Below are positions 2,611 through 35,292 of a stretch of 35,292 bases of DNA, piece after piece; position 1 is the stretch's first letter, and the number at the start of each line of letters is the position of its first letter. Both the position numbers and the translations under genes were made by a program. Under the pieces are notes generated by a model. The model was not told the origin of the DNA. It saw only the letters and a list, made by a program, of their open reading frames with translations, and ran no database searches. The stretch is taken from positions 1 through 35,292 of the forward strand of contig JAUSHZ010000004.1 in the NCBI GenBank assembly GCA_030648255.1. The letters run 5' to 3'. The DNA is from a bacterium (lineage in GTDB: Bacteria; Patescibacteriota; Minisyncoccia; Minisyncoccales; CG1-02-41-26).

Positions 2611-3417
2611 TCAACATACTCTGTCAGGATTCTTTATCTTTGTGCCTACTGGAAAACCCTTAACAAACTTTATAATAATATCCTCATCCTTGCCAGCAAC
2701 CGCTACTTTCTTCCCAGCCTGAGCACATTGAAATGCTGCTTTGAGTTTGGTTTTTATGCCACCAGATCCTCCTGTTGAGTTATGACCATTGTCTAAAAAC
2801 TCTAAACCAGCTTCACAGTCTATTTCCTCATAAATCTCTGCTTTTAAACTTTCCTGCGAATCTTCTTTGTAAATTCCTTTCACACTTGTAATAAACAACA
2901 CCGCATCCGCTTCCACGAGGGTAGCAATCCGCCATGCCAAATTATCATTTTCGCTAATGCCCTCGTCCATCCATCTTATTTCCTCGTCAGAAAGGACATC
3001 ATTTTCATTGATTATAGGAATGACCCCGTTCTCTAAATAACATATAGTGCTATCTTTCGTACTTTTCCGTTCGCCATTGTGCGCAAGGCTGGCATATGTA
3101 ACCCAAATCTGAGCAACCTCTTTTCCATATATCTCAAACGCTCTGCCCCATTCGTTCATTAAATGCCTTGCACCTATCCCTGCGATCTGCTTTTTCTCCA
3201 TGTGTACAGTTTCAAGTCGTAGCTCATCCATCCTTTCCGCACCAGCCCTAATGGCGCCCGAACTTACTATTGCCACCCCTATACCAAACTGTTGTACCGC
3301 TATAATCTGCCTAGCAAAATCATTAAAGATCTTCTGACTTAACCTACCATTTTCACCCGAGAGACTTTCTGTGCCAAATTTTACCACCAATCTAGAGACC
3401 GCTTTTAGTTTACACAT
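2611..3417 (-). CDS. proB: Glutamate 5-kinase (proline biosynthesis)
   Basis: 268 residues, the length of an amino-acid-kinase domain without the C-terminal PUA domain of longer ProB proteins. VVKFGTESLS (11-20) is the phosphate-binding start, SSGAIRAG follows, then QIAGIGARHLM, NENDVLSDEE (substrate region), DNLAWRIA, and the nucleotide-binding end SGGIKTKLKAA near residue 220. It makes gamma-glutamyl phosphate from glutamate and ATP. Normal partners ProA and ProC are absent from the window. The ATG at 3417 is preceded by a strong Shine-Dalgarno (AAGGAGG, 7-nt spacing), unlike most genes here. The long upstream leader is a T-box with a proline specifier, so expression should rise when tRNA-Pro is uncharged. 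The leader and base composition suggest acquisition from a Firmicute-like source; that is inference. Confidence 0.88.
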   Translation of the reverse strand: MCKLKAVSRLVVKFGTESLSGENGRLSQKIFNDFARQIIAVQQFGIGVAIVSSGAIRAGAERMDELRLETVHMEKKQIAGIGARHLMNEWGRAFEIYGKEVAQIWVTYASLAHNGERKSTKDSTICYLENGVIPIINENDVLSDEEIRWMDEGISENDNLAWRIATLVEADAVLFITSVKGIYKEDSQESLKAEIYEEIDCEAGLEFLDNGHNSTGGSGGIKTKLKAAFQCAQAGKKVAVAGKDEDIIIKFVKGFPVGTKIKNPDRVC

Positions 3418-3424
3418 TTCATTG

Positions 3425-3735
3425 CCTCCTTATTTCTAAATAATTCAAAATAAATAAAAACTCTTTCGCTCTTACTTCTTCTTTTTAAAGAACAAATAAG
3501 GACGAAAGAGTTCTTCCGTGGTACCACCTTAATTTGTTTTAGTTTTATCTAAAACCTTAACATCCTGCAAACACAGGATTACTGGAAGATAACGGCCAGT
3601 TGCCGAGCAAAGTTATTAGCCCTGCCATCTGTTAAGAGTAGGTTCAAGAAAAGCATTGACATGGGCTTCCAGCCTAAGGCCCATTTCTCTTTAGTCGTGG
3701 CTTTTATTTACTATTCTCTTGTCATTGATTTTAAT
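3425..3735 (-). promoter_or_regulatory. T-box leader (riboswitch), proline specifier, controlling proB
   Basis: Read on the minus strand. The T-box consensus AAGGTGGTACCACG is at 3517-3530. Stem I runs about 3634-3720, closed by AAGAG/CTCTT, with the AGUA/GAA S-turn. Immediately after GAA comes CCT (3640-3642) followed by A, giving a Pro specifier. The distal stem I has GAC/GUC and AUGGGC/GCCCAU helices with an AG-type bulge. Stem III is ATCCTG/CAGGAT near 3563-3580. The terminator is a 10-bp stem (3503-3512 with 3459-3468) followed by TTTATTTATT. Uncharged tRNA-Pro should stabilise the antiterminator and allow proB transcription. Confidence 0.9.
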
Positions 3736-32626: not shown

Positions 32627-33250
32627 TTAAACCACCCCAGCAGCTTGATGTTCTTTTTTAGCTTTTGCATTTTTATCAATCTTTTTAAAGTTGGCCACAA
32701 TGTTCCATTTTATTTTTCGCGAGTTTATTTGTTGAAAATCAATCTTTTCCAAACATTCTTTTAGCTCATCTTGATAAAAAGCATAGTGCGGTATATCTTT
32801 TTCATCACCTGACAATTTAATAAAAGTTTGGGGAGCTATCATTTTATATTGCATTTTACCAAACTCTAAATCTTGCTCCTCATACAAGCTCTCCCCTATT
32901 TGCTTAAAGTTCAACTGTTCAAAATCAGAAATTTTAATTGAAAAAATACCATTTACTTTAAGCACCCGATAAATTTCCTTAAAAACATTCTCAATTTTAT
33001 TTTTTAAATTATGGTTAATACACTGCCAAGAATAAACAGCATCAAAGCTTTCGTTTTCAAAGGGCAACGCTTTTTCAAAAATTAGCTCTTCAATACCAGT
33101 AGTATCATACCCCAATTCTCTCAAGGCAACTAAATTACGGCCATCCCCACAAAAAACCTCTAAGATGTTTTTAATCTTAAATTTCTTAAACAGCTTCAAC
33201 TCTTCTTCTGTTAAACTTATTCTAAAATCATGAGGACTTTGTTTTTTCAT
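32627..33250 (-). CDS. Class I SAM-dependent methyltransferase
   Basis: 207 residues. Motif I LEVFCGDGRNL (30-40) binds SAM, FDAVYSWQCINH matches motif II/III, and EIYRVLKVNGIFSIK motif IV/V. It is a type-11-like small-molecule methyltransferase; the substrate is unknown. The ATG (33250) lies only 16 bp from the -10 box of the divergent tRNA-like RNA gene, so the two promoters may interfere. Confidence 0.85.
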   Translation of the reverse strand: MKKQSPHDFRISLTEEELKLFKKFKIKNILEVFCGDGRNLVALRELGYDTTGIEELIFEKALPFENESFDAVYSWQCINHNLKNKIENVFKEIYRVLKVNGIFSIKISDFEQLNFKQIGESLYEEQDLEFGKMQYKMIAPQTFIKLSGDEKDIPHYAFYQDELKECLEKIDFQQINSRKIKWNIVANFKKIDKNAKAKKEHQAAGVV

Positions 33251-33263
33251 TTATTTCAAAAAT

Positions 33264-33271
33264 GTTATAAT
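33264..33271 (+). promoter_or_regulatory. Extended -10 promoter of tRNA-like RNA copy 1
   Basis: TGTTATAAT spans 33263-33271, with TATAAT at 33266-33271. The TG-N-TATAAT form can work without a -35. The block from TTTTTCATTT through the -10 to the RNA start is nearly identical to that of copy 2. Confidence 0.7.
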
Positions 33272-33282
33272 GGAATTGTGTT

Positions 33283-33350
33283 GGGGGTGGCTTGGTGTAG
33301 GTTCTGGCTTATCATCCAAGGACTTGGGGGTTCGATTCCCCTCACCTCCA
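33283..33350 (+). ncRNA. tRNA-like small RNA, copy 1 (68 nt)
   Basis: The acceptor GGGGGTG (nt 1-7) pairs with CACCTCC (61-67), with G3:U70-type wobble and discriminator A. The T arm is GGGGG-TTCGATT-CCCCT, canonical. The 36 nt between are too few for normal D and anticodon arms. Two folds fit. (a) A 6-bp stem 17-22/38-43, a bulged A37, a 3-bp stem 23-25/34-36, and loop CUUAUCAU. (b) A truncated D hairpin 8-12/16-20 plus a poor anticodon arm. CCA is not encoded. TTTTTT follows 4 nt after the end. Compared with copy 2 the frame is conserved and the interior differs with compensatory changes. Function unknown; G3:U70 suggests it could be charged with alanine (inference). Confidence 0.7.
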
Positions 33351-33370
33351 ATGCTTTTTTAAAACTGCCC

Positions 33371-33399
33371 TTGACAAATGAAAATAAAAATAATATAAT
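33371..33399 (+). promoter_or_regulatory. Perfect consensus promoter of the antisense small RNA
   Basis: TTGACA (33371-33376) and TATAAT (33394-33399) with 17-nt spacing: all 12 consensus bases match. It points away from copy 1 and toward the NUDIX 3' end. Confidence 0.85.
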
Positions 33400-33405
33400 T
33401 GGCTT

Positions 33406-33475
33406 AATTGGATGATAAGCCAGTTTCTTGTACCAGGTTAATTCCTGCAAAACCCGCCGCAAGGCGGTGTTTTTG
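33406..33475 (+). ncRNA. Small RNA with 16-nt antisense to the tRNA-like RNA
   Basis: Predicted start is about 33406, 7 nt after the -10 box. TTGGATGATAAGCCAG (33408-33423) is the exact reverse complement of 33304-33319, which is nt 22-37 of tRNA-like copy 1. A hairpin CAGG-TTAATT-CCTG (33434-33447) follows, then the terminator. It contains no start codon with a plausible frame. Expected length about 70 nt. The antisense stretch is at the extreme 5' end, free of stable internal stems, which favours pairing. Confidence 0.65.
33449..33475. terminator. Intrinsic terminator, usable on both strands
   Basis: CCGCC-GCAA-GGCGG (33454-33467) with flanking AAAAC/GTTTT pairing. TGTTTTTG follows on the plus strand. 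On the minus strand GGGTTTTGC follows, so it can also end the NUDIX gene transcript. Confidence 0.8.
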
Positions 33476-35042: not shown

Positions 35043-35051
35043 TGTTATAAT
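35043..35051 (+). promoter_or_regulatory. Extended -10 promoter of tRNA-like RNA copy 2
   Basis: TGTTATAAT with TATAAT at 35046-35051, identical in sequence and distance to the RNA start as in copy 1. Predicted leader about 5 nt. Confidence 0.7.
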
Positions 35052-35062
35052 GGAATTGTGTT

Positions 35063-35130
35063 GGGGGTGGCTTGGCGCAAGCCCCAGGTTGCCACTTGAG
35101 GGCTTGGGGGTTCGATTCCCCCTACCTCCA
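35063..35130 (+). ncRNA. tRNA-like small RNA, copy 2 (68 nt)
   Basis: The first 13 nt match copy 1 exactly. The acceptor is GGGGGTG/TACCTCC with discriminator A, again with the third pair G:U. The T arm is GGGGG-TTCGATT-CCCCC. Interior stem 17-22/38-43 is AAGCCC/GGGCTT; relative to copy 1, pair 20-40 changes from U-A to C-G. Upper stem pairs 23-36 and 24-35 also change compensatorily. The loop is GUUGCCAC. An alternative 6-bp hairpin GGCUUG/CAAGCC (nt 7-12/16-21) competes. No complementary small RNA follows within the window. Confidence 0.7.
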
Positions 35131-35181
35131 GCATATTTATTTTATCCACAAAAAAGTGTTTTAGATACAAACATTTTGCAC

Positions 35182-35292
35182 TCAGAATAATCTAAGAGCT
35201 TGATTTGGCGTTTTACCATTTAAACTACAATGTTTGGTGTCGTTGTAATACATATTCCATAATCTTATCTTGTATTTTAAATCTTCAAAAGA
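35182..35292 (-). pseudogene. C-terminal fragment of an IS3/IS481-like transposase (cut by window edge)
   Basis: Minus-strand frame open at the right edge, 36 residues then TGA. It reads LWNMYYNDTKHCSLNGKTPNQAL, split here as WNMYYND and SLNGKTPNQAL. This is the C-terminal integrase-core signature (YN..R.H..LNGKTP.E.L) of IS3/IS481-type transposases. The rest is outside the window, so it may be complete in the genome. The 51-bp gap to tRNA-like copy 2 should contain the IS end, but I could not identify the terminal repeat. Confidence 0.78.

Follow-up and report, generated by a model that had tools for sequence, protein, structure and literature searches.

RNA-only toxin-antitoxin systems are represented by the type VIII pair SdsR/RyeA of E. 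coli, in which both partners are small RNAs encoded as overlapping cis-antisense genes, and one base-pairs with and is thought to neutralize the other (PMC6610125). In CreTA, another system with an RNA-only payload linked to tRNA function, CreT is a mini-ORF that ties up a rare tRNA, while CreA acts through Cascade on DNA (PMC8501985). Transfer-messenger RNA (ssrA), including its two-piece forms (Rfam RF00023, RF04321), carries an alanine-accepting tRNA-like domain with G3:U70, no D-stem, and a T-loop/D-loop elbow. Here, we analyzed a 35,292-nucleotide window (contig JAUSHZ010000004.1, GCA_030648255.1) from an 847-kb genome of 33 contigs that was 97.8% complete, and found a pair of small RNA genes that is widespread in Patescibacteria and apparently undescribed: RNA1, which looks like an alanine-carrying tRNA that lacks a D-arm, and RNA2, an antisense RNA that co-evolves with RNA1 and probably acts as its dedicated off-switch. 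The window contained the following features:

33263..33271 (+), RNA1 promoter, extended -10 element TGTTATAAT, with a weak -35 TTTTCA at 33244
33278..33354 (+), RNA1 copy 1, D-armless tRNA-like RNA with acceptor G1 = 33283, discriminator A73 = 33350, and a 5-bp leader/trailer extension
33288..33319 (+), full RNA1 stretch in the predicted intermolecular duplex (D-domain plus arm plus loop)
33304..33319 (+), variable (anticodon-like) arm and loop of RNA1 that pairs exactly with RNA2
33371..33399 (+), RNA2 promoter, TTGACA-17-TATAAT
33405..33475 (+), RNA2, with a 5' antisense segment (about 33407-33440) followed by a terminator
33408..33423 (+), exact antisense core of RNA2
33454..33475 (+), intrinsic terminator of RNA2
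35044..35052 (+), promoter (-10) of RNA1 copy 2, TGTTATAAT
35058..35134 (+), RNA1 copy 2, whose cognate RNA2 lies on another contig of the same genome

The exact 16-nt reverse complementarity between 33304-33319 and 33408-33423, on which the original prediction of a dedicated RNA-RNA regulator or antitoxin-like pair was based, was confirmed. With up to 3 mismatches allowed, only these two sites occurred in the whole window, against 0.37 expected, and both were exact. The RNA2 promoter matched the sigma-70 consensus at 12 of 12 bases with a 17-nt spacer, while the RNA1 promoter matched 10 of 12 with TG before the second hexamer. However, the statement in the original prediction that the match covered the whole variable hairpin and nothing of the conserved frame was wrong. 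The match covers the 3' part of the 5' strand of the arm, the loop, and part of the 3' strand, and it continues with G-U pairs and bulges through the conserved D-domain, giving a predicted duplex of about 30 bp at -42.8 kcal/mol. Also not recognized initially were the alanine identity and tRNA elbow of RNA1, the spread of the system across Patescibacteria, and the embedding of some pairs in inteins.

RNA1 copy 1 folded at -34.2 kcal/mol (z -3.2) and was recovered at 84.8 bits (E = 1.4e-17) by a covariance model, which was built from five homologues and extended to 35. The model shows three helices, namely a 12-bp extended acceptor, a 9-bp arm with an 8-nt loop, and a 5-bp T-arm, with 20 of 26 pairs having two-sided changes and 196 double-change cells against 61.5 in shuffles, although model-based alignments lean towards their model. 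In 63 aligned members, G1-C72, G3:U70, and A73 were invariant (63/63), while acceptor pairs 4-69 to 7-66 changed by compensation. G3:U70 together with A73 constitutes the identity of alanine tRNAs and tmRNA, and RNA1 is therefore expected to be processed like a tRNA and charged by alanyl-tRNA synthetase. Two variants with a bulged nucleotide in the acceptor stem (loci L105 and L106), which still had a cognate antisense RNA, were left out of the 63; L106 appears to have A3-U70. T-loop UUC/UCC occurred with D-domain GG, and T-loop UGC with AG, without a clear exception, although in eight rows the D-domain GG was shifted in the alignment; this supports a real tRNA elbow. CCA was encoded directly after A73 in 19 of 63 members, whereas leader and trailer could pair beyond A73 in 48 of 63, so that 3' maturation is assumed where CCA is not encoded.

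RNA1 nevertheless differs from a canonical tRNA. ARAGORN called no tRNA in the window, no D-stem was present in the alignment, and the loops were mostly of 8 nt (consensus NUURYCAN) with a variable triplet. The 9-bp arm roughly replaces the D plus anticodon stack of a tRNA, and we infer that the loop could reach the decoding position. No Rfam family matched RNA1 above its gathering score, the only match in the window to reach threshold being a T-box leader (98 bits; 3495-3734, minus strand) upstream of a glutamate 5-kinase-like gene (2611-3417). The tmRNA model gave the best sub-threshold match, with its 304-nt message part deleted. Given this match, the alanine identity, and the missing D-stem, we considered whether RNA1 is the tRNA-like half of a split trans-translation device, with RNA2 supplying the message-like half by base pairing. 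This is very unlikely: 16 of 16 pair-bearing genomes tested, including this one, had a complete tmRNA, no conserved ORF or tag was found in 28 RNA2s, in which frames and stops were not conserved, and the duplex would unfold the elbow that tmRNA needs.

In 28 tandem loci, a TTGACA/TATAAT-type promoter lies 7-33 nt after RNA1, and the predicted start of RNA2 falls within a few nucleotides of the antisense. The duplexes reach about 30 bp and include the D-domain (-35 to -54 kcal/mol), while RNA2 contains little else than the antisense and a terminator. RNA1 more often has an extended -10 without a good -35, with TG-n-TAnnnT within 40 nt upstream in 32 of 65 family members, which suggests that RNA2 is the stronger unit. 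Interestingly, a perfect DnaA box, TTATCCACA, sits 5-7 nt after RNA1 in 7 of 65 loci (window 35142-35150 and loci L044, L049, L050, L051, L068, and L072), about 100 times the background density, indicating possible replication-linked control of RNA2. The strong promoter and accessible 5' seed of RNA2 could also fit an sRNA effector for mRNAs with RNA1 as its sponge. We regard this as unlikely, as the seed differs in every copy and RNA1 keeps tRNA features (G3:U70, A73, elbow, CCA) that a sponge does not need.

Searches of 247 order-level genomes gave 23 clear copies in 17 genomes, and a phylum-level sample of 380 genomes gave 63 genomes at E <= 1e-4, an upper bound because the weak end includes tRNA-Ala. 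Lower-scoring hits (at most 44 bits, about 80 nt) look like ordinary tRNA-Ala genes and were not counted. A pattern scan of GTDB contigs added named Parcubacteria, Kuenenbacteria, Moranbacteria, Nealsonbacteria, Sungbacteria, Yanofskybacteria, and Peregrinibacteria. RNA1-like sequences ending in ACC were also detected outside Patescibacteria, in Acidobacteria (L071, L090), Rhizobiales (L091), and two viral contigs (L134, L135), without an antisense partner nearby; the two acidobacterial ones lie just upstream of transposase genes, and these sequences may be a related but different thing. Plasmid and phage collections yielded no close copy, only tmRNA-like matches.

Nearly every copy examined had its own antisense partner, and complementarity was kept in homologous loci with different sequences. 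At 65 loci, cognate duplexes averaged -37.6 kcal/mol against -23.5 kcal/mol for composition-shuffled arms, and 46 of 65 lay below the lowest of 260 nulls, excluding chance. Over 53 loci, 16 of 16 core intermolecular pairs showed two-sided changes, with 206 double-change cells against 68.6 +/- 8.4 in shuffles and 29-41 in slid controls, and 90% paired against 67% (slid controls 26-43%). A few distant loci (L101, L102, L115) had only partial or unclear complementarity. Gene order was not conserved, with 46 tandem, 5 convergent, 4 divergent, and 1 upstream same-strand layouts, plus one divergent pair at a contig edge (genome G153); in members of a Yanofskybacteria-like family, RNA2 is divergently encoded upstream. 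What is conserved is therefore pairing between RNAs, not a DNA palindrome. A role of the complementarity at the DNA level, as an inverted repeat of a small mobile element or recombination site with incidental RNAs, could be suggested by the patchy distribution, several copies per genome, and insertion in frame inside inteins and surface-protein genes. However, this is very unlikely: in convergent layouts the two copies are direct, not inverted, repeats, yet the RNAs still pair, promoters and terminators are kept on both units, and the repeat starts at the predicted RNA2 start site.

RNA1 copy 2 (79.5 bits) seemed to lack a partner because the contig ends in an IS-like sequence. By searching the genome (G000) for the complement of its loop, we found the partner on another contig (C8, about 175-250; match at C8:183-196), with its own TTGACA/TATAAT and a terminator nearly identical to that of copy 1, and a duplex of -50.8 kcal/mol. 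The IS-like sequence (window 35150-35292 and C8:1-175) appears to have split copy 2 from its RNA2 and broken the assembly. Co-folding gave gains of -17.6 and -18.3 kcal/mol for the cognate pairs and 0.0 for both crosses, so that the two copies are predicted to be orthogonal. Two RNA1 copies often occur 1.2-1.8 kb apart (window 33278/35058; L077 4072/5249; L088 4202/5770; L085 3735/5011), suggesting local duplication followed by divergence of specificity.

No protein family accompanied most copies, the only neighbor recurring in more than four loci being a large surface-protein family that carries inteins, and a search for relatives of the adjacent kinase-like protein in genome contigs gave no result. 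Interestingly, in about ten loci the pair was embedded, antisense and in frame, inside a long ORF. Pfam identified intein splicing domains (PF14890) in GyrA (L056), GyrB (L055), and large surface proteins (L045, L074, L108; L080 below the curated cut-off). In L056, L055, L045, and L108, the RNA pair occupies the middle of the intein, where homing endonucleases normally sit, a position also noted for L057. Elsewhere the pair is intergenic.

Taken together, we are fairly confident in a two-RNA module in which RNA1 folds into an acceptor/T-arm minihelix with a D-loop/T-loop elbow and a long hairpin in place of the D/anticodon stack, and the unpaired 5' end of RNA2 captures the RNA1 loop and then invades the whole 5' half (D-domain, 5' strand of the arm, loop). 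While the pairing is supported by covariation, we infer that it destroys the elbow and the anticodon-like arm and so keeps RNA1 inactive. Each copy has its own private sequence, so paralogues are not predicted to cross-neutralize. The most likely purpose, although this remains tentative in the absence of expression, charging, or phenotype data, is an RNA-only addiction unit, in which RNA1 freed of RNA2 would disturb translation as a counterfeit alanine tRNA, with an anticodon-like loop that usually does not read Ala codons. The main alternative is that RNA1 is a useful, regulated alanine donor, for example for peptidoglycan or lipid alanylation or C-terminal alanine tailing, the amount of which is tuned by RNA2. 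Copies at two loci that look orthologous between genera (comF/dprA in genomes G184 and G236; upstream of a comM-like gene in G077 and G170) keep the pairing despite strong divergence, which may argue for a useful rather than purely selfish role, and the invariant alanine identity and the DnaA boxes, which hint at regulated expression, are also in line with this reading. We consider it less likely, as presence was patchy even within a family, with only three clear carriers (G000, G001, G022) among the 24 genomes of family f1 and a gap between at least 76 and at most 44 bits, no enzyme gene was linked, and rapid change of pairing sequence between paralogues is typical of addiction or antisense families.

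No published description of such a pair was found in the open-access literature searched, and we know of no tRNA-like RNA that carries a dedicated, co-evolving antisense partner. If real, it adds an RNA-only regulatory or addiction system to a huge, little-understood bacterial radiation, shows an RNA cargo at the homing-endonuclease site of inteins, and provides orthogonal pairs that could serve as switchable tRNA tools. As in SdsR/RyeA, both partners are non-coding RNAs and, by computation, one pairs with the other; a type VIII-like role is plausible, but membership is not claimed. The genes described here do not overlap, their layout varies, RNA1 is a tRNA mimic, and the family is spread over a phylum with co-evolving pairing. 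In contrast to CreTA, RNA1 itself is tRNA-like and RNA2 is a plain antisense RNA. Similar to plasmid antisense control pairs such as ColE1 RNAI/RNAII and hok/sok, which likely rely on fast, cognate-specific pairing started at a loop or tail, the pairs are predicted to show incompatibility-like orthogonality, but the target is a tRNA-like non-coding RNA rather than a primer or mRNA, and the genes do not overlap. Finally, RNA1 shares with tmRNA the tRNA-like domain with G3:U70, the missing D-stem, and the elbow, but has no message part and no tag, forms a closed hairpin with an anticodon-like loop, and coexists with a full tmRNA.
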